Shown: in pieces, positions 3,001 through 43,778 of the stretch
Position numbering within the stretch: position 1 is the stretch's first letter
Layout of the letters: the number at the start of each line of letters is the position of its first letter
From: Candidatus Saccharimonadota bacterium
GTDB lineage: Bacteria > Patescibacteriota > Saccharimonadia > Saccharimonadales > Saccharimonadaceae
Direction of reading: 5' to 3'
Length of the DNA: 45,020 nucleotides
Assembly (NCBI GenBank): GCA_017515205.1
Contig: JAFWHN010000006.1
Location: 1 to 45,020, forward strand
Translations under genes and position numbers: made by a program
The notes under the pieces: model-generated
What the model was told of the DNA's origin: nothing
Databases searched by the model: none
What the model saw: the letters and a program-made list of their open reading frames with translations, nothing else

Positions 3001-3861
3001 ACTTCTATTACTTATAATTCTGGTTATTCATTTGTGCCAAGTGATAATATGACGCTTTATGGTGTTTGCTTTTCAAATTCATCAACGATGCAGGCAATGT
3101 CAAATTCTGATTGCACTACAACAGCTAAAACAGTAAGAGATATCCGTGATGGTCGACAGTATAAGGTACGACGTTTGGCTGATAATAAATGCTGGATGCT
3201 AGATAACTTAAGTTTATCTCCTATTAATGATGAGTTAAACGAATTAGATGGTAAGACTAATGCTTCTAAGACAACTCTTACTTACTTCTTGAATGGTGGT
3301 GGCTCTAGCCCATACCCAGCAACTGGAGTAGATGATATTTGGACCAGTTCTTCTTATAATAAATATAATCAGCCAAAAGTAAAAGCTTCTTATAGGGATA
3401 CTACTATAACTAGCTATGGTGCTGGTTCTGGTAAAATAGGCGTATATTATAATTTTTGTGCTGCTAGCGCTGGTAGTTATTGTTATTCTTCTAGTGCTGG
3501 TACTGGAAACGCTACAGAAGACTTGTGCCCAGCTGGTTGGCGGTTACCTACATCTGGTGATAGTGGAGAATATAGAGCACTCTGCACAGCTTATAAAGGG
3601 TCTACTTGCACTAGTACATCTAGCAATTCTATGACTGCAACTTCTAGTTCTAGCCTTCAGTATAATCTCTCTACACCACTTTCTGGCCGATTTAACTCTG
3701 GTTCGCAAGCCAGTACGGATACCGCTGGTGTCTTCTGGTCTTCTACATTTAGTAGTAGTACCAATATGAACATGTTATATGTTGTCAGTGGGAATGTAAC
3801 GCCGTCTTATACTAGTGGCGGTCGACACTATGGATATTCTATTAGATGCGTAAAGAAATAA
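1..3861 (+). CDS. Giant repetitive Ser/Thr-rich surface protein with C-terminal FISUMP-like domain (5' end outside window)
   Basis: The reading frame is open to the first base (R-T-N before the first GTG), and later repeats begin with the same residues, so the gene starts upstream of the window. About 1286 residues are visible. The first 2.0 kb holds four super-repeats starting near 10, 565, 1135 and 1705. Each has a module opening VTLYYPSS-like and containing YRNQ, and the first three are followed by a module opening VTATFYYNNNT-like. Ser, Thr, Ala, Tyr and Asn dominate. From about 1970 to 3050 there are InlB/Listeria-Bacteroides-like pieces (GWxT, LYA, AGWD). The last 260 residues resemble the FISUMP domain: YKVRRLADNKCWMLDNLSL, CPAGWRLPTSGD, FWSST and a terminal YSIRCVKK. 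No LPXTG motif or C-terminal anchor is visible; a signal peptide would lie outside. It is probably an exported adhesin or surface-layer-like protein; its role in host contact is inference. Confidence 0.8.
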   Translation, partial: RTNVTLYYPSSTSARTSKTLYRNQYVNGTSGGNMSTTVLSDSNTGTTDYAPSTPITGYSIAGYAASASTNTVGYAAVSNMAADAGTTYYMILSKSVTATFYYNNNTSDSPTSYTAAVTSTTASGTQYVRCTSSAAEISNGSISVPAAVSNSKGTHGENYLNVGTSTSNMTAVSPTTGSTTYYARYSDAITIYKPASETTTTSATWHRNQRVTGTAAANMSTAVLNTADTGTSNSSYSSSVSNYSLYGFATSTNTATVTYGGTTPVQTAAEANAVYSTLYAIETRSVTATFYYNNNTTSGTCNTTSIKSTTASGTRTLYTTSTTAATTSQGSISVPSAVSGSAGTYCNAYAGVATSTGSMSAATPNTGTTTYYAFYRSNVTLYYPSSTSARTSKTLYRNQTFASTSALNTTVLSDSQTGTSNYAPSTPVTGYSIVGYAASASTNTASFASVSAMATDASCGTTYYMILNATYYARFCYNNNTTPTSGTSSVTSAAKSATRYVRVTSSAAEISNSNYSPPTGHYGTYNNALAGWATSTGTMTTTTPATSVGATSDPGSGTCNFYAVYRTNVTNYYYSGSAYTSRTLYRNQTLSSTSAMGTTYLSTSTTGLSNYTTAPGPGSSATYGFSTSLGSTTRTYSSVSGAAESTATTLNTIYRFLQEYSKYGSTGVSSIGYYSSMCFVSSTSATAGGTSCTVTTPSITVDTGYTSLGWGTQGHTTNGTAAGTDITLSTSDGTLYANAKINTYTVTLNRNCSTTATGSTSATATYNSTTLSAITVPTCANYTGTRTLSGFTTSSNNASGATVTYSTSGSSDVTWVKGSSNNVDLEYCTAGAARTFTLISVKIDGTVISVTEPSGCKFRISASTLNNYDIGVHTILATKENDDTGNISTNSFSLEIVDTAGGGNCTSASNCKSTSTTTYAFNGWHINSGTGTLVASTASTPALQPSVSGYTDSSSRWTRTSAATIYAGWDTNTSSFNSVTLPTITKSGYICGWTTTSSGATSITYNSGYSFVPSDNMTLYGVCFSNSSTMQAMSNSDCTTTAKTVRDIRDGRQYKVRRLADNKCWMLDNLSLSPINDELNELDGKTNASKTTLTYFLNGGGSSPYPATGVDDIWTSSSYNKYNQPKVKASYRDTTITSYGAGSGKIGVYYNFCAASAGSYCYSSSAGTGNATEDLCPAGWRLPTSGDSGEYRALCTAYKGSTCTSTSSNSMTATSSSSLQYNLSTPLSGRFNSGSQASTDTAGVFWSSTFSSSTNMNMLYVVSGNVTPSYTSGGRHYGYSIRCVKK
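10..1975 (+). repeat. About 565-bp tandem super-repeats inside the surface protein gene
   Basis: Near-identical DNA recurs with the same phase. The block at 10-60 recurs at 1135-1185 with only a few third-position changes, and the block at 286-320 recurs at 856-890. Unit starts at 10, 565, 1135 and 1705 give a period of 555-570 bp. Codon use is narrow (ACT, TCT, GCT, AAT, TAT), unlike the purine-rich neighbouring genes. Such long direct repeats are prone to recombination and copy-number change. Confidence 0.8.
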
Positions 3862-14699: not shown

Positions 14700-15732
14700 G
14701 TGGACGAGGGGGGATAAGATTGAGGATGTTTTGAACGAGTTTACTAAGCAGAAGCGACGTAACAGTGATTAGCACGGTAAATATGATTAACTGTGTAATA
14801 TTATTTGTCGTAAAATGATTTCTGTCTACAAGGCTTTTGAGAATAATAATATGCACTGCATATGATTCGAGCGAGACTTTACCAACAGACTCTAAAATTT
14901 GGCGGGTTTTTGGTAGTTTGAATAGTTCAAAGAAGATGATTATCAGAAAGATGGTACTTAGGGCTAGGGGTGTTAAGTAAAAACGCGATAGAGCTGGTTC
15001 AAATGCTGTGAAGCTTTTCTTTTGGAGAATAATGAAAAACGCGTCTCGGACAAAGAGTAAAGCTAGGACGATTAGAATAGTGGATTGTTTGATGGGCTTT
15101 TTCCCATAAACACGCGTGGCAAGAAGTGAACCGATGAGAAATGGGATGAACCTTGTTAGCCCAATTTCGTAAGTCATATAGAATTCTTTGCAGGTGACGT
15201 TTAATATACATAGAAAAACAATGTAGATTGGAATGAAGGCAATAATAAGATTTTGTTTTTTACTTTCAATAAGTTTATAGATTAAGGGATATATTAGGTA
15301 ACAAATTGCGATGAAGTTGATGAACCAGAATTCTCCAAACCCTTTTTCGCTAATAAAAGCATGGTTAAAGAAAAAGCTAAAGTCTTTATTATCTGAGAGA
15401 GTGCAGAAAATGAACCATGGTAGACAGACAAATAAATCTATTTTGAGCAGTTTGGTAAATCTTTTTTTATAAAAACTAAGTATGTGTTTGCCATCGGTCT
15501 TTTTTAGCGAGAAGTAGAGACAAATGCCTGACATTATTAGAAAGATATCTACGCCGACATTGCCAGCTTTGAATATTTGAACAATAAAGGGATGAAAATA
15601 TTTGACTGAGTCCGGGAACCGATTTGCGACATGGTATAGAATGATCCAAATGGCGGAAAAGCCATAAATTATATTGCGGTATTTACTGAGATTATACCAG
15701 TTAAAAATCTCGTCAACTGTTTTTTTAGTCAT
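14659..15732 (-). CDS. Acyltransferase 3 family membrane protein
   Basis: The 357-residue protein with about ten membrane segments has the family signature near the N-terminus, IIYGFSAIWIILYHVANRF with the catalytic His, then GVDIFLIMSGICLYFSLKK, then FYKKRFTKLLKI. Such proteins O-acylate (usually O-acetylate) surface polysaccharides or peptidoglycan. Placed between the flippase and the priming transferase, it most likely modifies the glycan made here. Its 3' end overlaps the flippase gene on the other strand by 41 nt, a conserved-looking compact convergence. TATAAT lies 9 nt before the ATG. The C-terminus is Pro/Ser-rich (PPRPPKHPVSSPSSPPL), encoded by the antisense of the flippase tail. Confidence 0.85.
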   Translation of the reverse strand: MTKKTVDEIFNWYNLSKYRNIIYGFSAIWIILYHVANRFPDSVKYFHPFIVQIFKAGNVGVDIFLIMSGICLYFSLKKTDGKHILSFYKKRFTKLLKIDLFVCLPWFIFCTLSDNKDFSFFFNHAFISEKGFGEFWFINFIAICYLIYPLIYKLIESKKQNLIIAFIPIYIVFLCILNVTCKEFYMTYEIGLTRFIPFLIGSLLATRVYGKKPIKQSTILIVLALLFVRDAFFIILQKKSFTAFEPALSRFYLTPLALSTIFLIIIFFELFKLPKTRQILESVGKVSLESYAVHIIILKSLVDRNHFTTNNITQLIIFTVLITVTSLLLSKLVQNILNLIPPRPPKHPVSSPSSPPL

Positions 15733-15741
15733 ATTACATAT

Positions 15742-15747
15742 ATTATA
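15742..15747 (-). promoter_or_regulatory. -10 box of acyltransferase gene
   Basis: Minus-strand TATAAT, 9 nt upstream of the ATG at 15732; no extended TG and no clear -35. Confidence 0.45.
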
Positions 15748-15758
15748 TAATAGATATT

Positions 15759-16373
15759 CTATTTGGCGCTAGATTTTTTAAAGATGGTGGTGAAAGTATA
15801 AAGGAAGATTTTGGTATCAAGAAAGAAGCTGGCGTTTTCAGAGTAAAAAAGATCCATTCTGATACGATCTTCGAAAGTACCGCGCGAGCGAAGGTGAGCT
15901 TGCCAAAACCCGGTAAGGCCTGGCTTGGTTTTGACGATAACACGGAAATCTTTTTCTCTTATATTCTTTTTTTCGTCAAGCAAGTATGGGCGGTTGCCTA
16001 CCATAGACATTTGGCCAATAAAAATATTAATAAATTGAGGGAATTCGTCTAACGATAAACGACGAATTATTTTGCCGGCCTTAGTAATTCTGGGATCATG
16101 ATTGAATTTGTGATTTTTAGTATATTCGTTGTTATACTTTGGCTCTTTTAATAGTTTTCTAAGTTCTTCGTCGGCGTTGATCACCATAGTGCGGAATTTG
16201 TAGAATTTGAAAGGTTTGCCGTTTTTACCTATGCGAGTTTGAATAAAGATAATGCGGTGAAAATCACCGGTGCAAATATAAAGTAAGCGAATAAAAAGAT
16301 AAAGTGGAATCAAAAAAACTAAGCCGATGAAGCTGAAAAGTAAATCGAAAATGCGTTTGAAAAAATGATACAT
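15759..16373 (-). CDS. Undecaprenyl-phosphate glycosyl-1-phosphate transferase (PglC-like priming sugar transferase)
   Basis: This 204-residue monotopic enzyme would transfer a sugar-1-phosphate from a nucleotide sugar to undecaprenyl phosphate, the first committed step of surface glycan assembly. Motifs in order are the N-terminal re-entrant helix KRIFDLLFSFIGLVFLIPLY, IFIQTRIGKNGKPF, the catalytic FKFYKFRTM, the Asp-Glu dyad region RLSLDEFPQFINIFIGQMSM, VGNRP, and KPGLTGFWQAHLRSRGTF. The canonical VGPRP is VGNRP here. The size matches the minimal PglC form without the WbaP-type extra membrane domain. It has its own extended -10 box (16392-16397) and a short leader with AGG before the ATG. 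It is the presumed initiator for the cluster. Confidence 0.9.
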   Translation of the reverse strand: MYHFFKRIFDLLFSFIGLVFLIPLYLFIRLLYICTGDFHRIIFIQTRIGKNGKPFKFYKFRTMVINADEELRKLLKEPKYNNEYTKNHKFNHDPRITKAGKIIRRLSLDEFPQFINIFIGQMSMVGNRPYLLDEKKNIREKDFRVIVKTKPGLTGFWQAHLRSRGTFEDRIRMDLFYSENASFFLDTKIFLYTFTTIFKKSSAK

Positions 16374-23800: not shown

Positions 23801-24541
23801 GTGGAGGAAACAAAAAAACCTGACAGGAGTTTTGCTAGGAGTGTGGATGGGTTGATGACTCGTCACGCAAGACGTGAATCTGTAACTAAGTCAAAAGCGG
23901 TAGTGCCGGTGCCTATGGATACTAAGAGTGATTCGGTAGACAAGGGCGGTTTTGTGGTAAGCACCGCTACTACAAAAACTGGAGTAAAAAAAGCTGGAAA
24001 GAAGTGGCAGAAATATTTGAAGCCAAAAATGATAGCGGTTTGTGGCGTGGTTTTTGTGATGGTTTTAGTGTTGGTGGTAGTAGTTTTGACGACTGTCTTT
24101 AACAAACCTGGTGAGGATAGTGGCGATGAAACAGTAGAAAATGTGGCACTTTTACCATCGAATTATGACACAACGGAGGAAGAAGATGCTACGACGAAAA
24201 AAATTATGGATGAATATATTGACATTGAAGTTGGCGAGCTGGAAGAAGTGGAAGATGAGCATGGTAAAAATAGCGTTATTCCAATAACGGTGAAGAATGT
24301 TTCAGAGGAGAAAATGACCGTAGCAATTGAGGTAGTGGCATTAGATGGGGATGGAAATCCGCTAGATGTCGCTTCGCTTTATGCGGAAGGGATTGAACCA
24401 GGGCAATCCTATTTGTTCCGTGCTTTTGAACTATCTGCACTGTCTGATGAACAATTGCGGCAAGCTAAATATGAGGTGCATAAGGCGTACACTTATGAGG
24501 CACCAACAACGGAGGATGCGGATATTGGTGGTGATGCATAA
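23801..24541 (+). CDS. Single-pass membrane protein with extracytoplasmic beta domain (FxLYD-like), paralogue 1
   Basis: The 246-residue protein has a basic cytoplasmic tail of about 75 residues, one membrane helix (about 77-98, MIAVCGVVFVMVLVLVVVVLTT), an acidic linker, then a domain of alternating strands: VIPITVKNVSEEKMTVAIEV, GNPLDVASLYAEGIEPGQSYLF. This resembles FxLYD-type or DUF4352-type immunoglobulin-like domains exposed outside. It starts at GTG with AGAGG upstream. The adjacent gene has the same architecture and related domain sequence, so the pair is a tandem duplication. Function is unknown; a surface or cell-wall role is plausible. Confidence 0.75.
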   Translation: MEETKKPDRSFARSVDGLMTRHARRESVTKSKAVVPVPMDTKSDSVDKGGFVVSTATTKTGVKKAGKKWQKYLKPKMIAVCGVVFVMVLVLVVVVLTTVFNKPGEDSGDETVENVALLPSNYDTTEEEDATTKKIMDEYIDIEVGELEEVEDEHGKNSVIPITVKNVSEEKMTVAIEVVALDGDGNPLDVASLYAEGIEPGQSYLFRAFELSALSDEQLRQAKYEVHKAYTYEAPTTEDADIGGDA

Positions 24542-24576: not shown

Positions 24577-25332
24577 ATGGATCAGAAAAAAGAAAATGTT
24601 GTGAAGAAGGTTTCTTTAGATGGTATGAGATTTACGGGGCCTAAGACGAGTGCTAGTAGTGCGAAGCCTGCTCCTAAAGTTGCTAGTAGTGCCACTACTT
24701 CTAGCGAAAAAAGCAGTAGTACTGCTACTAATAAACTTGCTAGCGTGACTGGAAAGCCAGCGTCTACGATGGAGAAGCAAACTTCTACGATTTCCACTAA
24801 CGGTGTTAAAAGGAAAAAATCTAAATCATTAAAGAAGGGTAATCCTTTAATGTGGGTGCTAGGCTGTTTGATAGTGGCAATTGTAGTGATTTCAGCAGTT
24901 TTGATAATTCGCAATTTGACTAATGGTGAACCAGAACCGGAGCCGGTAGTTTCGAATGGAGATTCGTCAGTTACCGAAAAACCAACGGAAGAGGAAGAGA
25001 GAATTACTAAAGAAACTTTGGAAAAATATCTTGACCCAGGCATAGAGGGCTATAAGGAAGATACTTTTGGCGAAAATGTGCACGAGGCTATCGTAGTGAG
25101 TATGCATAATAAGTCTGAAGAAAAAGTTTCTCTCATGATGGAAATTATTGCGGTAGATAAAAACGGCGAAATCAAAGACAGTTCTTACGTTTCGGCAGAG
25201 AATATGCTACCAGGGGAAACCCAATCTTTCCCAATGTTTGTTGAATCTAAAATACCTATGAACGAATTAAAGGATATGGAGTTTAAAGTTTATCGAGCGA
25301 ATACTTACGACGCTACTCCTTCGGCAGAGTAA
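24577..25332 (+). CDS. Single-pass membrane protein with extracytoplasmic beta domain, paralogue 2
   Basis: The 251-residue paralogue of the preceding gene has a Ser/Ala/Lys-rich cytoplasmic part (about 1-88), a membrane helix at about 90-110 (PLMWVLGCLIVAIVVISAVL), an acidic Pro/Glu linker (EPEPEPVV), then a matching domain: AIVVSMHNKSEEKVSLMMEI, SYVSAENMLPGETQSFPMF, KVYRANTYDA. The order of strands and the closing Y-x-A-x-T-Y-x-A motif match paralogue 1 (VHKAYTYEA). An excellent Shine-Dalgarno sequence (AAAGGAGG) lies 6 nt before the ATG. It sits 35 nt behind paralogue 1 and is probably co-transcribed. Confidence 0.75.
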   Translation: MDQKKENVVKKVSLDGMRFTGPKTSASSAKPAPKVASSATTSSEKSSSTATNKLASVTGKPASTMEKQTSTISTNGVKRKKSKSLKKGNPLMWVLGCLIVAIVVISAVLIIRNLTNGEPEPEPVVSNGDSSVTEKPTEEEERITKETLEKYLDPGIEGYKEDTFGENVHEAIVVSMHNKSEEKVSLMMEIIAVDKNGEIKDSSYVSAENMLPGETQSFPMFVESKIPMNELKDMEFKVYRANTYDATPSAE

Positions 25333-26940: not shown

Positions 26941-27372
26941 ATGATGAAAAAGTTTTTGAAAATAGTTTTACCATTATTACTAATAGCAGTCGTAGTCGCT
27001 GGAGTGCTTGCTCCGGAAACTTCCGCTTTGACTTTGCGAGAAGGGGCAGAGGCAGCACGCTGCGATGGTTGTCCATCTGACTTGTTTGGTGAAACTGGGG
27101 CGTTTAGAAAAATTACGAATACTGTGCTGTTTGTAGTAGGTGTGATTGCAGTGATTATGTTGATAATTGGCGGTATTAAATATGTGATTTCCGGTGGTGA
27201 TTCAAAAAAAGTGACAGATGCAAAAAATACAGTGCTTTATGCGATTATTGGTATGGTGATTGCGGTGTTTTCATACGCGATTGTGACTTTCGTACTTTCG
27301 GCTTTGCCAACAGCAGAAGATGAAAAATTACCAGAACAGACTGGGGCACTAATTTTAGACGCTAAGAGCTAA
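26941..27372 (+). CDS. TrbC/VirB2-like pilin protein of the T4SS, with signal peptide
   Basis: The 143-residue protein has a signal peptide (about 1-29, cleavage near ETSA), a short region with paired Cys (RCDGCPSD), then two membrane helices around the characteristic loop IIGGIKYVISGGDSKKVTDAKNTVLYAIIGMVIAV. The same loop (GGxxYxxSxGD.xK...AK.T..Y..IG) occurs in the minus-strand pilin genes at 28685-30596. TrbC/VirB2 subunits form the conjugative or secretion pilus. It is separated from the rest of the T4SS by comF and hsp20, and its end overlaps comF by 18 nt on the opposite strand. Confidence 0.75.
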   Translation: MMKKFLKIVLPLLLIAVVVAGVLAPETSALTLREGAEAARCDGCPSDLFGETGAFRKITNTVLFVVGVIAVIMLIIGGIKYVISGGDSKKVTDAKNTVLYAIIGMVIAVFSYAIVTFVLSALPTAEDEKLPEQTGALILDAKS

Positions 27373-28044
27373 AATAGCGAAAACGATTTTTTGAGCACCG
27401 GCTTTTTGGAGTTTTTGATGGGCTGCATGAAGGGAAGCGCCGGTAGTCCAGACATCATCAAAAAGAATATAAGTAGTGTCTGGACTGATGGGGATACGGG
27501 TGTTGATTTCATAGGCCGAGGAAGCTTGGCTGAGTCTAGTTTTTCGGTCGGAACCGACTTGGACGGAGTTTTTGTTACGCATCAAAAGATTGGTGACTTG
27601 ATAATTTGAGCCACGTAATTTGACAAATTTTTTAGCAATTAGGGTAGTATGGTCGAAACCACGAGCGCGGATGTGGGCACTTGTAGTAGGGAGTGGGACG
27701 ATGGCGACTGAGCCGTCGATAGAAGGAAGAGTTTGATTTAATAATTCGGCGAGTGGGGAAGCGAGGGCGCGAACAGAATGATATTTGAGGTCGTGAATTA
27801 AGTTGCCGACAAGTTCGGAACGTTGATCTACTACATAGGTAGGTGGTAAATCTGGGCAGTTTGGACAGTTGCCGGTGGGGTTTTGGTGCTTACAATTTGG
27901 GCAAACATTAGTGCGTTGTTCTAAAATGTTTTTTTTACAACGATTGCAAAGCGCGTTCCCTAAACATCCGCAACCCCTACAGGAGTGGGGCGCGATAAGG
28001 TCTAGCGGGTTCAGAATTGTTGTAATTTTTACAATATTTAGCAT
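27355..28044 (-). CDS. comF: ComF family phosphoribosyltransferase-like protein
   Basis: The 229-residue protein has an N-terminal zinc-finger region with CxxC pairs (CRGCGCLG, CNRCKK, CPNCKHQ, CPNC) and a C-terminal PRTase domain: VPLPTTSAHIRARGFDH and the PRPP loop TYILFDDVWTTGAS. ComF proteins are needed for DNA uptake in naturally competent bacteria, as a cytoplasmic partner of the translocation machinery. Placement inside a T4SS/pilin locus is suggestive of DNA uptake, but comF is widespread in these genomes. The upstream minus-strand TGATAAAAT is a weak extended -10. Confidence 0.9.
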   Translation of the reverse strand: MLNIVKITTILNPLDLIAPHSCRGCGCLGNALCNRCKKNILEQRTNVCPNCKHQNPTGNCPNCPDLPPTYVVDQRSELVGNLIHDLKYHSVRALASPLAELLNQTLPSIDGSVAIVPLPTTSAHIRARGFDHTTLIAKKFVKLRGSNYQVTNLLMRNKNSVQVGSDRKTRLSQASSAYEINTRIPISPDTTYILFDDVWTTGASLHAAHQKLQKAGAQKIVFAILALSV

Positions 28045-28069
28045 AATTCTCTTGATTTTATCATGGTGA

Positions 28070-28078
28070 TGTTATAAA
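28070..28078 (+). promoter_or_regulatory. Probable extended -10 promoter of hsp20
   Basis: TGTTATAAA, about 31 nt before ATG 28110, leaving a short leader with GGAGG. No CIRCE element is seen here. Confidence 0.45.
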
Positions 28079-28109
28079 ATACAAGCATAACAATATAAGT
28101 GGAGGAAAT

Positions 28110-28628
28110 ATGGCTCGTACAAACAGTGACGATTTGCTGATGGAAGACGATCTTGCTGCGGCGTTTTTGGGAGGCGATGAGGGAGAAGCTACTCCAGCTC
28201 AGCCTGCTGCAGAAGAGCCAGTTGCGGTAGAGGAAGAGACTCCGCAAGAAGAAGTCAGCGAAACGAACGAAGATGAGTGGGAAAATGCCGACGATTTTCC
28301 TGGGCAACTAGCAGTAGATGTCTATGAGACCGCCGATAAATTAGTAGTAAAAGCACGCACCGCTGGCATCTCAAAATCTGATCTCGATGTCAGTATTTCT
28401 GACAATATTTTGACAATTTCTGGTGTTTTGTCTGGTGGTGAAGATGAGCAAACTACGAGATGGCATATTCAAGAATGCTATTGGGGAGAATTTTCGAGAA
28501 CGATTGCTTTGCCAGTACAGGTAAAGGAAGACGAAAATAGTGTGAAAGCTGAATTAAAAGATGGCGTTCTCACAATTATGTTTGAGAAGGAAAAGACTGA
28601 ACAGCCAAAGAAGATCGAAATCCAATAA
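28110..28628 (+). CDS. Hsp20/alpha-crystallin family small heat-shock protein
   Basis: The 172-residue ATP-independent holdase has a very acidic, Pro/Glu/Ala-rich N-terminal arm of about 60 residues, longer and more charged than usual, followed by the alpha-crystallin domain: LAVDVYETADKLVVKARTAG, LDVSISDNILTISGVL, ECYWGEFSRTIALPV, LKDGVLTIMFEKE. The C-terminal IEIQ may serve as the I-x-I anchor. GTGGAGGAAAT precedes the ATG. It is followed by a strong hairpin terminator. It lies within the T4SS locus but has its own promoter. Confidence 0.92.
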   Translation: MARTNSDDLLMEDDLAAAFLGGDEGEATPAQPAAEEPVAVEEETPQEEVSETNEDEWENADDFPGQLAVDVYETADKLVVKARTAGISKSDLDVSISDNILTISGVLSGGEDEQTTRWHIQECYWGEFSRTIALPVQVKEDENSVKAELKDGVLTIMFEKEKTEQPKKIEIQ

Positions 28629-28641
28629 AAGAGCCTATAGA

Positions 28642-28669
28642 AAAATATCTCCCGAAAGGGAGATATTTT
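28642..28669. terminator. Bidirectional intrinsic terminator
   Basis: AAAATATCTCCC, GAAA tetraloop, GGGAGATATTTT: a perfect 12-bp stem between convergent hsp20 and the last pilin gene, with A-tract and T-tract in the stem so that it can act in both directions. Confidence 0.85.
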
Positions 28670-28684
28670 GATGTCTTAAATAAA

Positions 28685-28984
28685 CTATTGTCCGATGATG
28701 TTGCTGATGACAAAGTTGACGATAGCAAAAGCAAGTACACAAATGACGAGACCGATGAGGCCATAAAGGATAGTGTCTTTAGCTTTTTTGACTTTACCGG
28801 CATCACCGGATGAAGTCATGTAGCTAACGCCACCAATAATCATAACAATAACGCAAACAAGACCGAGAACACCAATGACGCCGTTGATGATGCCAATGAT
28901 AGCTTTGTCTAATTCACCGCCTTCACCTTCTATATATTGTCCTGGATCGTTGTCGGCAACAACTTTGATAATAGTATCTTTCAT
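28685..28984 (-). CDS. Small VirB2/TrbC-like pilin protein (no signal peptide)
   Basis: The 99-residue protein has two membrane helices flanking GGVSYMTSSGDAGKVKKAKD. Its core is nearly identical to the next gene upstream (29058-29444) at protein and DNA level, with only scattered mostly synonymous changes over about 200 bp, so it is a recent duplicate. It lacks an obvious signal peptide. AAAGG lies before the ATG. It is last of four minus-strand pilin genes and ends at the shared terminator. Confidence 0.75.
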   Translation of the reverse strand: MKDTIIKVVADNDPGQYIEGEGGELDKAIIGIINGVIGVLGLVCVIVMIIGGVSYMTSSGDAGKVKKAKDTILYGLIGLVICVLAFAIVNFVISNIIGQ

Positions 28985-29057
28985 TTTAATCCTTTATATT
29001 AACTTAAGTTTATTTTATAACTATTTTTTAAAAAATGCAATAGATATAACTGTGGGA

Positions 29058-29444
29058 TTATTTTTCTTCGCAGTGAGCTTTGTCGCCGGAGCCGGTCCAT
29101 TTGAAGCCAGCTTCTTTACATTCTTTGGAGCTTGAGTAATTACCTGGATTATCTTTTATGATATTACCGATAACAAAGTTGACGATGGCAAAGGATAGCA
29201 CGCAAATGACGAGACCGATGAGGCCATAAAGGATAGTGTCTTTAGCTTTTTTGACTTTACCGGCATCACCAGAGGAGGTCATATAACTAACGCCGCCGAC
29301 AATCATGACGACAACGCAAACTAGGCCAAGAACGCCAATGACGCCATTAATAATATCAATGACATTATTTGGCAAATTGTGGTCACTTTTGTCGCCGACT
29401 GAGTTGACTTTGTGGGCGGCTAACTGTAATAGATTTTCTTTCAT
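29058..29444 (-). CDS. VirB2/TrbC-like pilin protein with Cys-containing tail
   Basis: The 128-residue close paralogue of the 28685-28984 gene shares the same two-helix core (VSYMTSSGDAGKVKKAKDTI, LIGLVICVLSFAIVNFVIGN) but has a 28-residue C-terminal extension, SSKECKEAGFKWTGSGDKAH, ending CEEK. The extra domain with two Cys may be exposed. No cleavable signal is evident. GAAAGGAAATAC precedes the ATG. Confidence 0.75.
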   Translation of the reverse strand: MKENLLQLAAHKVNSVGDKSDHNLPNNVIDIINGVIGVLGLVCVVVMIVGGVSYMTSSGDAGKVKKAKDTILYGLIGLVICVLSFAIVNFVIGNIIKDNPGNYSSSKECKEAGFKWTGSGDKAHCEEK

Positions 29445-29461
29445 GTATTTCCTTTCAAAAG

Positions 29462-29854
29462 TTAGTTATAAATGATTTTGTCGATGACAAAGTTGACAAT
29501 TGCAAACGCTAGGACACAGATAGCGAGACCGATGCAGGCGTAGAGAATGGTTTTTTTGGCTTTTTCAAGTTTGGTGGCGTCGCCATTAGAAGTCATATAA
29601 TTAATGCCGCCGATGAGGACAAAAATTACTGCTACGATGCCAGTGACGGCAATGATGGCATCTAGAATATTGGTGATGACTTTCGGTAAAGCGTTGGCAT
29701 TACCTTTGCAACCGGCGGCTTCTTTGACTGAGGCAGGTGCGTTAGAGTTACAAACATCATCGGCAAAGGTTGGAGTGCTGAGGAGAATACTACTAAGGCC
29801 TAGAACACAAATAATGGCTAAGAAAATGTTTTTAATTAATTTGGTGAATTTCAT
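29462..29854 (-). CDS. VirB2/TrbC-like pilin protein with signal peptide
   Basis: The 130-residue protein has a signal peptide (about 1-31, ending STPTFA-D), a short Cys-containing region (VCNSNAPASVKEAAGC), then the pilin core IGGINYMTSNGDATKLEKAKKT and ACIGLAICVLAFAIVNFVID. AAAGGAGG before the ATG is the strongest Shine-Dalgarno sequence in the locus, suggesting high expression, as for a major pilin. The start overlaps the end of the upstream two-module gene by 23 nt. Confidence 0.8.
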   Translation of the reverse strand: MKFTKLIKNIFLAIICVLGLSSILLSTPTFADDVCNSNAPASVKEAAGCKGNANALPKVITNILDAIIAVTGIVAVIFVLIGGINYMTSNGDATKLEKAKKTILYACIGLAICVLAFAIVNFVIDKIIYN

Positions 29855-30596
29855 GGACCTCCTTTGAGATAATTGTTTGATTGTTATAGCCTGCGCCCTC
29901 GTCGGCTTTTCTAATCATATCAGAGACGAAGGCAGTGATGATTTCGGATAGGGCGACGATGGCGAGGCCGATAAGGGCATATATAATGACGCTTTTAGCT
30001 TTTTGCAATTTGGCGGGTTCGCCAGTGGAGCTGATATAGGCGATGCCACCGTAAACGATGAAGATAACTGAGACGACTCCGGCGATACCAATGACCCATT
30101 GCAGAGCATTGGTGACCATGGCGCCCCCATCAACACAGCCGGTGCCACTAGTTGGGTCGCAGTTAAGTTTGCCTCCAGCGCCGAGGAGGGCAAAGCGGAT
30201 GGTACTCATGATGAGATTGGCAGACATAACAATGGCGAGGCCAATGAAGGCTTGGGCTAGAGTTTTTTTGCCAGTGGCAACTTTACCAGGGTCTCCATAA
30301 GAGAAGATATATTGGTAGCCGCCATAAATGACGTAACCTAGAACTAAGTAAGCGGCAGCGACGGTGATATCGACTAAAACATTTGCAGCGATGGTCCAAA
30401 TACCGCTTTTAAGAGATTCTTGATCATTGGTTATAGTAACGCCGCAATTCCAGGAATTGAAGCCGAGAAAATTATTGCAAGTGTCGTCTACATAGCTAGT
30501 AGTGTCTTTGGCTAGAGCCATCTCGGAAGAAAGGGCGGAAAAAGTGAGGGTGACGGTGCAGCAGATTGCAAGAAAAACCAAGATTTTTTTAATCAT
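29832..30596 (-). CDS. Fused two-module pilin-like membrane protein
   Basis: The 254-residue protein has a signal peptide (about 1-29, ending MALA-K) and then two copies of the pilin module: YVIYGGYQYIFSYGDPGKVATGKKTLAQAFIGLAIV (about 90-125) and IVYGGIAYISSTGEPAKLQKAKSVIIYALIGLAIV (about 180-215), each in a two-helix unit. Between them are Cys residues (NCDPTSGTGC). It is first in the minus-strand pilin operon, divergent from the VirB6-like gene. A tandem fusion could serve as base, tip or assembly adaptor of the pilus; this is inference. Confidence 0.75.
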   Translation of the reverse strand: MIKKILVFLAICCTVTLTFSALSSEMALAKDTTSYVDDTCNNFLGFNSWNCGVTITNDQESLKSGIWTIAANVLVDITVAAAYLVLGYVIYGGYQYIFSYGDPGKVATGKKTLAQAFIGLAIVMSANLIMSTIRFALLGAGGKLNCDPTSGTGCVDGGAMVTNALQWVIGIAGVVSVIFIVYGGIAYISSTGEPAKLQKAKSVIIYALIGLAIVALSEIITAFVSDMIRKADEGAGYNNQTIISKEVHEIHQIN

Positions 30597-30709
30597 ATTT
30601 TTATCTTAGCATAAATAGAAAAAAAGTCTAGTTTTTGAAGATTTTTTAGACGGTGGTGGTGGCTAGTGATTTTTAAATTAGCATAAATAGTATTTTGGTG
30701 TTCTACCTC

Positions 30710-30738
30710 TTGACAAAAAAGCTTATGCGTGCTATAAT
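30710..30738 (+). promoter_or_regulatory. Full sigma70-type promoter of the T4SS operon
   Basis: TTGACA (30710-30715), 17 nt, extended -10 TGCTATAAT ending at 30738. Leader of about 28 nt to ATG 30773. It is probably the main promoter for the VirB6-like gene. Confidence 0.75.
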
Positions 30739-30772
30739 TAAAGATGCGCCTAAGTGGGAGACGTAAGAAGTT

Positions 30773-34310: not shown

Positions 34311-35255
34311 ATGGCGCAGTATAAGGTACCACAGGATGTTGAGGCGGATGATAAATTGCTAGGACCGTTTTCGTTTAGGCAATTTGTTTACCTTTTGATT
34401 GCTGGCGGCTGTATAGCGTTAGGAGTGGCCTTGTTCCAAATTTTCCCACTATTAATTATTATTCCAATTATACCGGCATTATTCTTTATTGTTTTAGCTT
34501 TGCCGTTAAAAAAAGACCAACCGATGGAAACATATTTAGCGGCGATTGTGTCATATTATTTGAAGCCAAGGACGAGGATTTGGGTGCCAGGGCAAAGAGA
34601 ATCAACAATTCGTATTACTGCTCCGAAAGTGGTGGAAGAAACAAAAGCGAGGGATATCACAGGCGAAGAAGCTACGCATAGATTGTCGTTTCTAGCTGAT
34701 ATTGTGGATACGGAAGGGTATGCGATTAAAAATAGCAATACTGCTCATATTAATGATGATGTGGTAGCAGAAGCAAATGCTACTTCGGATATGTTTGAGA
34801 CTACGCATTTTGATAGTTTGGAGGATACGATTGCGAAAGACGAGAATGATAGGCATAGAGAAGTGGTGGAAGAAATGCGGGAAGCGATTAGACAGACGGA
34901 AAGTATGACGCACGAAATAAAAAAGCGGAGTGATGAAGATAAGGGACCGGAGAAGGGTTCATTGAGAGAAGCAGAGGCGAAAGACGATGCAGAAGTAATA
35001 GTGGAGCCAGGAGCAGTACCAGAGCCTGTAGAAAAGACTGAAAAAATTGAGGAACTAGTGGAGAAAACCAAAAGGCCTGTGGAAAAAACCGATAGAATTA
35101 GCGAGCAAACTGAAGAAAAAGTAGAGAAAACAGAAGCAAAACCGAGTATAATAGAATTAGCTAATAATGCTGATTTTTCTGTTGCGACTATAGCGAAAGA
35201 AGCTAATCGAATAAAGGAAAGGGATGAGGGCGAAGTTTTTATATCGCTACATTAA
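34311..35255 (+). CDS. PrgI family (VirB3-like) T4SS protein with long charged tail
   Basis: The 314-residue protein opens AQYKVPQDVEADDKLLGPFSFRQFVYLLIAG, the PrgI-family start, with two membrane helices (about 25-65) and KPRTRIWVPG. PrgI/VirB3 proteins partner VirB4 at the inner membrane. Residues 105-314 are a hydrophilic tail rich in Glu and Lys with repeats of the type VEKTEKI, VEKTKRP, VEKTDRI, EKVEKTEAK (about 240-280), predicted to be disordered or coiled. Such a tail is not part of standard PrgI. It ends 3 nt before the next gene. Confidence 0.85.
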   Translation: MAQYKVPQDVEADDKLLGPFSFRQFVYLLIAGGCIALGVALFQIFPLLIIIPIIPALFFIVLALPLKKDQPMETYLAAIVSYYLKPRTRIWVPGQRESTIRITAPKVVEETKARDITGEEATHRLSFLADIVDTEGYAIKNSNTAHINDDVVAEANATSDMFETTHFDSLEDTIAKDENDRHREVVEEMREAIRQTESMTHEIKKRSDEDKGPEKGSLREAEAKDDAEVIVEPGAVPEPVEKTEKIEELVEKTKRPVEKTDRISEQTEEKVEKTEAKPSIIELANNADFSVATIAKEANRIKERDEGEVFISLH

Positions 35256-35258
35256 ATT

Positions 35259-36245
35259 ATGAATCCACAGCAAAATAATCAGGATGGGCAAATGCCGATG
35301 GACCAAAACGCGATGGGACCGCAGGTGATGATGCCGGATGGTGGTGCAGGTGCGCCCCAAATGGTGATGCCAGATCAAATGCAAGGTCAGATGCAGAGCC
35401 AGGTGCAAGATCCGAATATGATGCAAGGACAAATGCCAATGCAGCAGATGCCGATGCAAAATAATCAGAATGCGGTAAGTCTTGGTTCAGCGGCGATAGC
35501 GGCAAATCAAGCGTCGCCAAATTCTGGTACAAAGGATTCACCAATTTCGACTCAATCTACACTTTTGATTTCAGAATTACGCGATAATGTGGTAATTATG
35601 AAGGATGGTTCTTTCCGAGCGGTGGTAGCTTGTAAATCAATTAACTTTGATTTGATGAGCGACATGGAGCGAGAGGGTGTAGAGTATTCTTATCAGAACT
35701 TTTTGAATTCTTTGAAATTTACAACACAGATTTTGATTCGTTCACAAAGGGTAGATATTGGACCGTATCTCGAAAAATTGTCGGAAATACGGCGGAATAA
35801 TGATAATATGTTGCTCGGAGTTTTGATGGATGATTATATTAATTTCGTGGATGTGCTTTCACAAGAAGCAAATATTATGGATAAGTCGTTTTTCATAATT
35901 ATTCCATATTATTCATCGCCGGATGCAGAAAAAGTTTTGCAACAAACTAAAAACATTTTTAAGTCGTTTTCTAAATCTAAAGCGCCAGTAGTGACAAAAA
36001 TTGATCGGGCGACGTATGATAAAGCTCTTTCGGAGTTGTCCAATAGGGTAGATTCGGTAATGTCTGGGTTATTCCAAATTGGCATTCGTTCAGTAAGACT
36101 TAATACACGGGAACTTGCGGAACTTTATTATAACTTTAATAATCCAGATACGGCAGTAAGAGAACCTTTGGTTGATTTTAGTAAACTCGCAACGATGTAT
36201 GTAAAGAAAGGTGATAAGCCGAATGAGGAGGGGATAAATGGCTAA
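35259..36245 (+). CDS. TraC/VirB4 N-terminal-like T4SS protein
   Basis: The 328-residue protein has an N-terminal Met/Gln/Pro low-complexity region (about 1-70, many QMQ and MQ units), then a globular part: LLISELRDNVVIMKDGSFRAVVACKSINFDLMSD, EGVEYSYQNFLNSLKFTTQILI, RVDIGPYLEKL. This resembles the N-terminal domain of TraC/VirB4, which binds PrgI/VirB3, but no Walker motifs follow. The following VirB4 gene starts inside its last 8 nt. VirB4 function therefore seems divided between two chains, or this is a dedicated adaptor. Confidence 0.75.
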   Translation: MNPQQNNQDGQMPMDQNAMGPQVMMPDGGAGAPQMVMPDQMQGQMQSQVQDPNMMQGQMPMQQMPMQNNQNAVSLGSAAIAANQASPNSGTKDSPISTQSTLLISELRDNVVIMKDGSFRAVVACKSINFDLMSDMEREGVEYSYQNFLNSLKFTTQILIRSQRVDIGPYLEKLSEIRRNNDNMLLGVLMDDYINFVDVLSQEANIMDKSFFIIIPYYSSPDAEKVLQQTKNIFKSFSKSKAPVVTKIDRATYDKALSELSNRVDSVMSGLFQIGIRSVRLNTRELAELYYNFNNPDTAVREPLVDFSKLATMYVKKGDKPNEEGING

Positions 36246-38061
36246 AAAGAAACAACTAACGGCGGCTGAGCTAGCAGCGCAAAAAGAGGCAATGGAAGCA
36301 GCTGAAATTCAGCAAGCGTTTGAGCAAGGTACTAATACTTTACGTGATTTGATTTCGCCGTCAGCAATTGAAATTCATTCAGATTATTTTAGATTGGGCA
36401 ATAAGTATGGGCGGACACTGTATATATATGGTTATCCGAGGATGCTTTATACTGGGTGGCTTTCGCCGATTATTAATATAGACGAGGTTTTGGATGTATC
36501 AATGTATATTTATCCAGTGGAGTCGTCTGTAGTGATGAAGAACTTACGTACTAAAGTTACACAGCTAGAAGCGTCGATGAATTTGAATATGGAAAAAGGT
36601 AAAGTGCGCGATCCGGAACTTGAGGCGGCCATTACGGATGCTGAGGAATTGCGTGACCAATTGCAGCTAGGTGCTGAAAAGTTTTTCCGATTTGGGCTTT
36701 ATGTGACTTTGTGGGCGGATTCGCTAGATGAGATGAAGTTTGTCCAACAAAAAATTGAAACGATTTTAGGACAGCAAATGGTGTTTTCGAAAGTGGCGAA
36801 TTCGCAACAGGAGCAAGGCTTAAATTCAGTGATGCCGCAATGCTCGGATCAATTACAAATTCGGCGGAATATGAATACTGGTGCAATTTCGACGTCATTT
36901 CCATTTACTTCGGCAGATTTGACACAGGATAAAGGGATTCTTTATGGAATCAATATGCACAACAATGGTCTAGTGATATTTGACAGATTTTCACTAGAAA
37001 ATGCAAATATGGTGGTGTTTGCAAAATCTGGTGCAGGCAAATCATTTACGGTGAAACTCGAAGCACTGCGTTCGATGATGGTGGGGGCGGAGATTTTGAT
37101 TATCGATCCAGAGAATGAATATCAAAAATTATGTGATGCGGTAGGTGGGTCGTATATTAGATTGTCACTAAACTCGGATGTAAGGATTAACCCATTTGAT
37201 TTACCAAAAGTGGTGGATGCAGAAGATGCAAACGATGCTCTCCGGGCGAATTTGGTGACTTTGCACGGTCTATTTAGATTAATGCTGGGCGGGAATCAAA
37301 TGGCTGGTGGTCAAGTAGTACCAGCACTTTCGGCAAACGAAGAAGCGGACTTAGATCAGGCTTTAATTGATACTTATGCGCGAGCAGGAATTACGTCGGA
37401 TCCATTGACACATCAATCAACGCCACCGACGATTGCTAATTTATATGACACACTTCTACACATGGAAGGGACTGGACCGACTTTGGCGCAAAGATTAAGA
37501 AAATACACGACTGGAACTTTTGCGGGGATTTTCTCACAACAGTCAAATGTGGATATCAATAATCAAATGGTAGTATTTAACATTCGTGATCTAGAAGATG
37601 AGTTAAGGCCGGTAGCGATGTATATTGTGCTTTCGCATATTTGGAATATTGTAAGAGCATCACAGAAAAAACGTTTATTAATTGTAGATGAGGCTTGGCA
37701 GTTGATGAAGTACGAAGATTCGGCGAATTTCTTGTTTTCACTGGCGAAGCGAGCGAGAAAGTATTATTTAGGTTTGACGACGGTAACACAGGATGTAGAA
37801 GATTTTATGAGTTCAAAGATGGGACGCGCAATTGTTGGTAACTCATCAATGCAGCTACTTTTGAAACAATCTGTTTCGGCAGTGGATGTTTTGTCGGACG
37901 TATTTAAATTGACTGAAGAGGAAAAGAGAAGACTATCAAACTTCCCGGTGGGGCAAGGGTTGTTCTTTGCGGGGCAAAATCACGTGCATATTCAAATTAT
38001 TGCTTCAGAAACTGAGGAAGGCTTGATTACTACAAATCCAGCCAGTAAAAAACCTAGTTAG
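36238..38061 (+). CDS. virB4: VirB4-family T4SS ATPase
   Basis: The 607-residue ATPase powers T4SS assembly and substrate transfer. The N-terminal part (about 40-240) includes GNKYGRTLYIYGYPRMLYTGWL and dimerisation-type helices. The RecA-like domain has Walker A KSGAGKSFTVKLEA (about 264-277), LIIDPENEYQKL, Walker B RLLIVDEAWQLM and the C-terminal TTVTQDVEDF with a Gln sensor. The size is shorter than the 800 or so residues of classical VirB4, in line with the separate N-terminal-like protein upstream. It is coupled to that gene by an 8-nt overlap. No VirD4 coupling protein or relaxase is in the window, so secretion or DNA uptake is as likely as conjugation. Confidence 0.9.
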   Translation: MAKKKQLTAAELAAQKEAMEAAEIQQAFEQGTNTLRDLISPSAIEIHSDYFRLGNKYGRTLYIYGYPRMLYTGWLSPIINIDEVLDVSMYIYPVESSVVMKNLRTKVTQLEASMNLNMEKGKVRDPELEAAITDAEELRDQLQLGAEKFFRFGLYVTLWADSLDEMKFVQQKIETILGQQMVFSKVANSQQEQGLNSVMPQCSDQLQIRRNMNTGAISTSFPFTSADLTQDKGILYGINMHNNGLVIFDRFSLENANMVVFAKSGAGKSFTVKLEALRSMMVGAEILIIDPENEYQKLCDAVGGSYIRLSLNSDVRINPFDLPKVVDAEDANDALRANLVTLHGLFRLMLGGNQMAGGQVVPALSANEEADLDQALIDTYARAGITSDPLTHQSTPPTIANLYDTLLHMEGTGPTLAQRLRKYTTGTFAGIFSQQSNVDINNQMVVFNIRDLEDELRPVAMYIVLSHIWNIVRASQKKRLLIVDEAWQLMKYEDSANFLFSLAKRARKYYLGLTTVTQDVEDFMSSKMGRAIVGNSSMQLLLKQSVSAVDVLSDVFKLTEEEKRRLSNFPVGQGLFFAGQNHVHIQIIASETEEGLITTNPASKKPS

Positions 38062-42097: not shown

Positions 42098-42171
42098 GGT
42101 CCGGTAGCTCAGCTGGTTAGAGCACGAGCCTCTTAAGCTTGGTGTCGAGGGTTCGAGTCCCTCCCGGATCA
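42098..42171 (+). tRNA. tRNA-Lys(CUU)
   Basis: Acceptor GGTCCGG pairs with CCGGATC (one G-U). D-arm GCTC...GAGC, anticodon stem CGAGC/GCTTG with loop CTCTTAA (anticodon CTT), T-arm GAGGG-TTCGAGT-CCCTC, discriminator A, encoded CCA at 42172-42174. Its 3' half is overlapped antisense by the recombinase gene and is the probable integration target. Confidence 0.95.
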
Positions 42172-43778
42172 CCACAGGTAATTTGGCCTGTTTTTACGCC
42201 TGAAATTAGAGTTTGAAACGGTTCTTTATATCTGTAAAGGACCGTTTTTTGTTGGTCAATTTCGAGGTTCAAGAATATTTTTCGGGCCAAAAGGTCCATT
42301 TGAAGCATATCTGCCGCTCTCATCTGTAAATCCAGGGAATTTAGGGGGTTCAAGAAATTTTCGGCAGTTAGCTTTAATTTGCTTGGATCCACGATTTTCT
42401 CGTTAATTTCCGTTAGTTCATCGTCCAGTTTTGCCATCTCCAGTTGCCTTGCATCAATTTGCTGCTTGATGCGGTCTTTGGCCGGTTTAGGCGCATCCTT
42501 GCCGAGTTCAGTGTATTGCTCGGCAAGTGCGTCTATCTGGCGCTGTTTGTTGTTCTTCTCGGCTTGTACGCTTCGTTTACGAGCTAGAATGTCGTCCATT
42601 TTCGCGTCGGTGTATGCGCGCATATTCTTTACAAAATCTGCGTAATGCGACTCTGTGAAGTGTAGCTTGGATAATTCTGCGTACATATCCTCTAAAATTA
42701 CACCAACGCGTATGCCTTTTGGGTTGCGTGGACATCCTTCCCATTGGCAACGGGCGTTTAAGTAGTATTTGCCGCGTCGTCCGCGTGAGCGCGACACGAT
42801 CATATAGTGTCCGCATTCTTTGCAGACTATCATATGGCGGAACGGCAAGAATAATCTCTGGCGTTCTGGTTTAAGTGGTTCAAAGTACGTTATTTCGCGT
42901 CTTGAACGGTCTTTAGTCTGAGCTTGTACTATATTGAATTCTTCTTCTGTTACGACCGGCTTAAAGTCTTGGTAGAGCTGTTTCAAATCAACTGCATGTC
43001 CAGCTTGAACCAGCACGCCATAGTAGAATGGATCGCGGAAAATGGTTGTCATGGCATGATCGCCAATAACCATTAAGCGCGGATGTTTGTTTCTGCGTGA
43101 TAACTTCGTCATACGCGATACGTTATGTGCGCGTAAATACGCCAGCGCTTCGCTTCTGGTTGCACCAGCAATAATCATCTCCCACGCATGGCGAATGTGA
43201 GGGAAGTTCTCGTCTGGTAGATATAGGCCAGTAGCTTCGTCGCGGATATATCCCCACTTCGGCACGCCGGAGGACTTGCCTTGTGCAAAGTTCGAATCTA
43301 CACCGCGCTGCACGCTTTCGCTCAAATGCTCGGAGTACTGCTTAGACATTGCAAACATGATGTTTAGTAGCAGTTTTCCGCTTGAATCGTTGGTAAATTC
43401 TAGAGTTGGAAATTTAAGGTCTTTAATCGTGTCGTTATCTACCATATCCACGATTTTGCCGGCCTCTAGTGAATTACGAGATAGACGGTCTGGGTGCCAA
43501 GCCAGAATGCCGTCGTATTTGCCTTTCTCGATATCTTTTAGCATCTGCAAGAAGAGCGGACGATTACCGCTTTTCTTAGCAGACTTTGATTCTTGGATCG
43601 GCTCGCCCACCACGAGCAATCCTTTCGCTCTGGCATATTCTTTGCATGCCGCGATTTGGTCTGGTAATGATTTAGCTTGCGCCTCGGCGTCCTCGGAAGA
43701 TTTACGCACGTACATGACGTAACGCAAAGGCTTCGCGGTAGGCTCTGGCGCCATTCCTACGTAGTCCAATATCTTCAT
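42117..43778 (-). CDS. Large serine recombinase/integrase, C-terminus formed by antisense tRNA-Lys
   Basis: The 553-residue site-specific recombinase has a resolvase catalytic domain (about 18-160): YVMYVRKSSEDAEAQ with the nucleophilic Ser, WHPDRLSRNSLEAGKI with conserved Arg residues, and MFAMSKQYSEHLSESVQRG. A Recombinase domain (about 165-300) and a zinc ribbon (CKECGHYMIVSR ... CQWEGCP, about 320-350) follow, then a coiled coil (about 385-450). The last 19 codons, CGDPGGTRTLDTKLKRLVL, are read from the complement of tRNA-Lys. Base composition looks richer in G+C than the neighbours. Large serine recombinases integrate and excise phages and conjugative elements. ATG 43778 is the first Met; no strong Shine-Dalgarno sequence is visible. 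Confidence 0.9.
   Translation of the reverse strand: MKILDYVGMAPEPTAKPLRYVMYVRKSSEDAEAQAKSLPDQIAACKEYARAKGLLVVGEPIQESKSAKKSGNRPLFLQMLKDIEKGKYDGILAWHPDRLSRNSLEAGKIVDMVDNDTIKDLKFPTLEFTNDSSGKLLLNIMFAMSKQYSEHLSESVQRGVDSNFAQGKSSGVPKWGYIRDEATGLYLPDENFPHIRHAWEMIIAGATRSEALAYLRAHNVSRMTKLSRRNKHPRLMVIGDHAMTTIFRDPFYYGVLVQAGHAVDLKQLYQDFKPVVTEEEFNIVQAQTKDRSRREITYFEPLKPERQRLFLPFRHMIVCKECGHYMIVSRSRGRRGKYYLNARCQWEGCPRNPKGIRVGVILEDMYAELSKLHFTESHYADFVKNMRAYTDAKMDDILARKRSVQAEKNNKQRQIDALAEQYTELGKDAPKPAKDRIKQQIDARQLEMAKLDDELTEINEKIVDPSKLKLTAENFLNPLNSLDLQMRAADMLQMDLLARKIFLNLEIDQQKTVLYRYKEPFQTLISGVKTGQITCGDPGGTRTLDTKLKRLVL

Follow-up and report, generated by a model that had tools for sequence, protein, structure and literature searches.

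The window (the whole stretch of DNA analysed here, a contig of 45 kb, C7, from a genome of 650 kb in nine contigs) carries five genes for VirB2-like pilins, p1 to p5 in Table 1, that contain six pilin modules and lie beside a type IV secretion system (T4SS) locus. The organism, very small and parasite-like, is a Saccharibacterium of the Candidatus Nanosyncoccus group. The comparison with relatives supports, at the level of sequence, that the pilins of such syntenic arrays are old, distinct types kept in a fixed gene order and not interchangeable copies. That these types are specialised subunits which co-assemble, whether as a pilus or as a membrane ring, seems to us probable. To a more specific reading we would give a probability of roughly 0.45, i.e., a heteromeric pilus or channel that is built from four or more pilin types, each with a fixed role and not exchangeable for another, with some neighbours fused and with a relocated “head” pilin (slot 1, see below) whose outside domain has been swapped among species (a GDSL hydrolase, or domains that belong to no known family; an array pilin of a sister genus has Ig-like repeats).

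Support comes from positional orthology. We collected 60 regions of relatives, with 57 main arrays including that of the window. Wherever the region was complete the order of the genes was ComF, Hsp20, pilins, VirB6, PrgI, TrsD and VirB4. In comparisons of arrays from different families, reciprocal best hits were collinear in 94% of the pairs (950/1,011), and in 95% when one array per family was used. The shuffled control gave 50%, with a maximum of 0.55 in 200 trials (0.66 for the one-per-family set). We have referred to the rank of a pilin counted from VirB6 as its slot. Slots were defined on 25 unfused arrays outside the genus of the window, and slot hidden Markov models (HMMs) were built on module sequence alone, without tails or signal peptides, the tested group being held out each time (leave-one-group-out). 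The training excluded 11 arrays: seven contain fusions, L098 has a duplicate, and L118, L122 and L127 belong to other orders. The held-out assignment was right for slots 1, 2 and 3 in 25/25 arrays each (75/75).

In addition, the slots have signatures of their own. Slot 1 has a C-terminal PG[GSA] in 24/25, against 1/124 for the other slots checked, and its N-tail, presumably outside the cell, is long (up to 645 aa) and rich in cysteine. The motif F..W[YWDC] is found ahead of the first helix in 21 of the 25 slot-2 pilins and in 0/124 elsewhere. Slot 3, with a median length of 99 aa, mostly lacks both a signal peptide and N-tail cysteines (20/25), while exactly two N-tail cysteines are present in slot 4 (24/25). 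The original prediction for this DNA had already proposed specialised subunits, and positional orthology, slot signatures and the repeated fusions described next give that proposal comparative support.

The p5 gene codes for two modules in one chain, as had been predicted, with PF18895 matches in two separate stretches. Its first half (residues ca. 70–133) is slot 2 (57.4 bits with the slot HMM, the next best being 42.0), followed by a linker with two cysteines and by a slot-3 half (residues ca. 160–225). The same fused pilin is present in other Saccharibacteria, many of them from ruminant guts and including Candidatus Nanosyncoccus alces, and therefore the system in the window is a Saccharibacterial T4SS. 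Among 117 genomes of the genus, about 84 (hand count of the listing) have a match that spans both modules in one frame. Over the genus, the slot HMMs placed the first halves in slot 2 in 16/16 cases and the second halves in slot 3 in 13/16. A tree of 107 modules from the genus (iterations limited to 300) grouped the first halves with the unfused first genes of three arrays (L072, L082 and L085) in one clade, 19/19, with an approximate likelihood ratio test (aLRT) value of 74.6 and an ultrafast bootstrap (UFBoot) of 98, and 13 of the 16 second halves in another (97.8/99). Fusion has taken other forms as well. Genus g20 has a slot 2-slot 3 fusion with slot 1 kept, slots 1 and 2 are fused in L109/L110, and L071 and L079 contain three-module pilins. 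The fusion of unlike neighbouring types implies that they are co-expressed, and suggests that they would be used near each other, 1:1. Our first idea, that the fusion of the genus joined slots 1 and 2, was ruled out by the slot HMMs, which give slots 2 and 3. A different type of fused protein was seen in two genomes (G134 and G135), in an additional T4SS-like locus that also has TrsD and VirB4. There one chain combines a pilin module with a polytopic domain of ca. 340–400 aa (L096:8711-10165 and L100:7583-8863). For the polytopic part of the L100 protein, the TrbL/VirB6 match stays below the cut-off (23.0 vs. 25.9 bits, E 7.5e-5), so that these might be pilin-VirB6 fusions.

No slot-1 gene is found in the array of the window. 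The genome has two further modules, both on contig C6 (46214-46573 and about 14745-15905), and both are assigned to slot 1 (68.6 vs. 42.5 and 60.9 vs. 37.8 bits). One copy is a 119-aa protein beside a gene for an rpoD-like sigma factor, and it had matches in all 60 genomes of the genus that were sampled, the top ones mostly outside the array. The other is a 386-aa protein whose N-terminus is signal-like, with a predicted ectodomain and with the module at its C-terminal end. Several genomes of the genus have slot-1-like modules in proteins of 350–680 aa. In one of them (G213, L210:825-1967) the module is at the C-terminus of a GDSL hydrolase (PF13472, 40.0 bits vs. a cut-off of 32.9). In the sister genus (G163, L107:9155-10771) a 538-aa array pilin has the module at its N-terminus, followed by Ig-like Big_2 repeats (95.7 bits). 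Head domains that differ by species on a conserved pilin base would fit a surface-exposed subunit of low copy number. A 714-aa slot-1 pilin (L115:9647-11791) has a putative outside N-terminal part of 645 aa without known domain. CHAP-like C-terminal domains on some slot-1 relatives were seen by eye only, with a Pfam E value of 0.014 in one, and we do not claim them.

All five genes exceeded the curated cut-off of PF18895 (T4SS_pilin, 26.6 bits; scores in Table 1), and the whole-genome search recovered the six modules of the window separately (37.2–45.5 bits), in agreement with the coordinates and the count of five reading frames and six modules in the original prediction. The motif GGxxYxxSxG[DE] that it had described is present in 6/6 modules. 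None of the pilins reached the cut-off of TrbC/VirB2 (PF04956; best 25.9 vs. 27.9 bits) and, the E value being ca. 1e-5, we take them as related to that family and not filed in it. Signal peptides and N-terminal segments were called from hydropathy only; as expected, only some of the genes have them, and a single one, p3, has the C-terminal extension with cysteines. The p1 gene is located beyond ComF, on the opposite strand, and belongs to slot type 5+ (99.8 vs. 92.8 bits for slot 4), and p4 has a counterpart in nearly all arrays of the genus. The DNA of the p2 and p3 cores had been described as nearly identical, which holds for a run of about 68 identical nucleotides and not overall (83.7% over 221 nt); the two genes are a recent duplicate pair with partial sequence identity. 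The pilin genes nearly touch or overlap (23 nt between p4 and p5), a feature that recurs in relatives and suggests translational coupling.

Table 1. Positions of the pilin genes and of the adjoining T4SS features in the window.
Feature	Position	Strand	Remarks
p1, outer pilin, 143 aa, one module, N-terminal hydrophobic segment	26941-27372	+	PF18895 44.7 bits
p2, short pilin, 99 aa, one module, no signal peptide	28685-28984	-	PF18895 43.1 bits
p3, 128 aa, one module, no signal peptide, 36-aa C-tail with 2 Cys	29058-29444	-	PF18895 44.0 bits
p4, 130 aa, one module, N-terminal hydrophobic segment	29462-29854	-	PF18895 48.2 bits
p5, fused two-module pilin, 254 aa, N-terminal hydrophobic segment	29832-30596	-	PF18895 66.4 bits, two stretches
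Intergenic region, pilin genes and virB6 divergent	30597-30772		176 bp
Consensus sigma-70 promoter toward virB6	30710-30738	+	TTGACA-17-TATAAT, TG-extended, 12/12 positions
VirB6-like polytopic protein, 1153 aa	30773-34234	+	Array neighbour in nearly all complete loci
PrgI (VirB3-like)	34311-35255	+	PF12666 47.0 bits vs. cut-off 27
TrsD-like (VirB4 N-terminal-like)	35259-36245	+	NF041427 E 7e-7, below cut-off
VirB4 ATPase, CD1110 family	36238-38061	+	NF045971 381 bits vs. cut-off 325

The pilin array adjoins VirB6, PrgI, TrsD and VirB4, and the PF18895 matches together with the conservation of the whole block across relatives bear out the claim that these are T4SS-type pilins linked to VirB4. 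The set of proteins (a VirB4 of the CD1110/FATA group, PrgI and TrsD, the last with a sub-cut-off match to its model) is that of an MPF_FATA-type T4SS. VirB4 gave a single match in the whole genome with the query used, and PrgI is also single copy. The VirB6-like protein of the window had no Pfam match over the cut-off, and owes its name to its position and to published annotation. Toward the pilin genes, only weak promoter matches were found in the divergent region. Matches to TrwB/VirD4-like ATPases are located on other contigs, unlinked to the T4SS locus (G000:C8:3730-4677 and C6:20020-20169). Elsewhere in the window, a large serine recombinase with Resolvase and Recombinase domains (42117-43778) is found near the contig end, possibly as part of an integrated element, and a repetitive, surface-like protein of 1283 aa ends in a Fib_succ_major domain (10-3861). 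Two adjacent proteins (23801-24541 and 24577-25332) are alike in layout, with a disordered N-terminal part, one membrane helix and a predicted outside domain, and neither matched a Pfam family over the cut-off.

Within the genus, mean pairwise identity ranged between 0.65 and 0.89 for the module cores, compared with 0.32–0.66 for the N-tails. The most conserved core was that of p1 (0.89), followed by the signal-less p2 type (0.80, its N-tail 0.32). Cores more conserved than tails would fit a constrained membrane or polymer core with outward tails. The AlphaFold (AF2) model of p2 is a hairpin with helices at 24–57 and 62–97 and a predicted local distance difference test (pLDDT) of 78, and that of p5 has an N-terminal helix and then four helices (pLDDT 76). 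Both models are of moderate confidence and show plain helical hairpins, which resemble many unrelated folds. Searching the sequences of PDB chains with the p2 and p5 profiles gave no meaningful match. A search for VirB5 (PF07996) was also negative, but the control genomes were silent too, so that its absence is not demonstrated.

A pilin array beside a T4SS is of a kind already known and not new. According to a 2025 survey (PMC12102498), 441 VirB2 arrays of 2–11 genes occur among 3,035 genomes of Patescibacteria, are abundant in Saccharimonadia and Microgenomatia, have an average within-array identity of 25% and may aid adaptation to host strains. In Southlakia epibionticum the T4SS with its pilin series is essential (SEML1_0006-0019; PMC10633639), and six VirB2-like pilins, structurally conserved and divergent in sequence, are described (PMC12857230). 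We found PF18895 modules in 189 of 195 genomes of the class (at least 90% complete), mostly 5–10 per genome, and therefore a multi-pilin array is the rule in the class. The contrast with ordinary T4SSs with one VirB2 that the original prediction had drawn is fair, although multi-pilin arrays of Patescibacteria had already been published. The fixed pilin types, the recurrent fusion and the relocated head-bearing type appear to be undescribed in the parts of these three sources that were consulted.

In the reading that we favour, the five genes would supply some of the VirB2-like types, at least four in all and each old and distinct, that serve a single Gram-positive-style T4SS. Each module would span the membrane as a hairpin, its short cytoplasmic loop rich in lysine and its two tails outside, and on the VirB6/VirB4 platform the types would most likely assemble together, each in its fixed role, as one heteromeric structure, either a filament or a short channel. 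The slot 2-slot 3 fusion would lock both types 1:1 and adjacent, and the slot-3 partner would then need no signal peptide of its own. Slot 1, with its large outside domains in relatives and its location elsewhere in the genome, may be a low-copy, tip-like head that meets the host, with other types as candidates for the shaft. The mixed pilus, or the base and tip subunits, that had been predicted could be of this kind.

The same fused hairpins and fixed subunit types could also belong to a heteromeric membrane ring or channel without an extended pilus. V-ATPase proteolipid rings are heteromeric and contain fused double hairpins, and the resemblance extends to the top Foldseek match of the p2 model, the ATP synthase c subunit, though with an E value of 0.58. 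The pilin modules fused to a polytopic domain in the second T4SS-like loci, one of the two with its sub-cut-off TrbL/VirB6 match, point in the same direction. We consider such a ring unlikely, given that the PF18895 and sub-cut-off TrbC matches indicate pilins and that the large outside domains of slot 1 suit a surface-exposed position. Pilin variants stored for antigenic variation or for host-strain matching, as suggested for Bartonella and Anaplasma and as extended to Patescibacteria in PMC12102498, would explain the low published within-array identity, the genus N-tails being far more variable than the cores, and recent extra copies such as p2 and p3. However, the types are recognisable by position across families, the fusions place unlike types in one chain and force their co-expression, and the published essentiality of the pilin series (PMC10633639) suits non-redundant parts, all of which makes the variant store quite improbable to us. 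Variation inside one type (tails and slot-1 heads) could nevertheless tune host range. The p2/p3 duplicate is also what would be expected if near-equivalent copies merely raised the amount of pilin, but slot identity in 75/75 cases, slot-specific motifs and the fusion of unlike types leave this simple dosage effect with very little plausibility.

Several observations weigh against the heteromeric pilus or channel that we propose. The second half of p5 scores 67.9 bits for slot 3 and 66.0 for slot 4, a margin of 1.9 bits that is a weak call if taken alone, and three second halves of the genus fall outside their main clade. The slot HMMs do not separate slots 4 and 5+ cleanly (15/25 and 58/61 right), and the three arrays from other orders fit the slot scheme poorly. 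Slot 1 is unlinked from the array in the genus, and therefore the link between gene order and assembly order is weakened. Finally, Foldseek and VIA-align comparisons with the PDB gave generic hairpins, with no VirB2 above background among the rows listed. We do not count this last comparison as evidence against VirB2 membership, as it speaks neither for nor against a VirB2 fold.

The T4SS is essential for the life of a Saccharibacterium on its host (PMC10633639), and its role has been described as completely unknown (PMC11665869). If the pilins are specialised parts in fixed roles, the question becomes concrete, i.e., which type is the head, which is the shaft and how the exchangeable head domains act on the host surface. 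A superfamily described as having one pilin type would moreover gain a heteromeric filament or channel, and slot-specific markers would become available for annotating such arrays in thousands of genomes.

Among known systems, the T4SS VirB2 arrays of Patescibacteria are like that of the window in the PF18895 family, the linkage to VirB6, PrgI, TrsD and VirB4, the copy number and the class. The papers on them, in the parts consulted, say nothing of fixed slot types or their signatures, of the slot 2-slot 3 fusion, of a relocated slot 1 or of pilin-enzyme fusions, and the 2025 survey reads pilin variety as possible host adaptation, unlike the reading presented here. The pilin-like conjugal transfer protein of the Mbov_0395 family from mycoplasma integrative and conjugative elements (NF045849, cut-off 40) is matched by p2 (56.2), p3 (53.0) and p4 (41.9), whereas p1 and p5 stay below the cut-off; its model covers a single module, compared with the two of p5. 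The VirB2/TrbC pilins of Gram negatives (PF04956) are likewise two-helix hairpins, in some cases with a signal peptide, and are encoded with VirB4. However, Gram negative conjugation systems have one pilin, in many cases plus a VirB5 tip, where the array of the window has several pilin types. The VirB2 paralogue arrays of Bartonella Trw and Anaplasma, as cited in PMC12102498 and PMC12857230, also have several VirB2 genes per T4SS, but those copies are read as variants, while pilins of the window type are conserved in position across families and partly fused.

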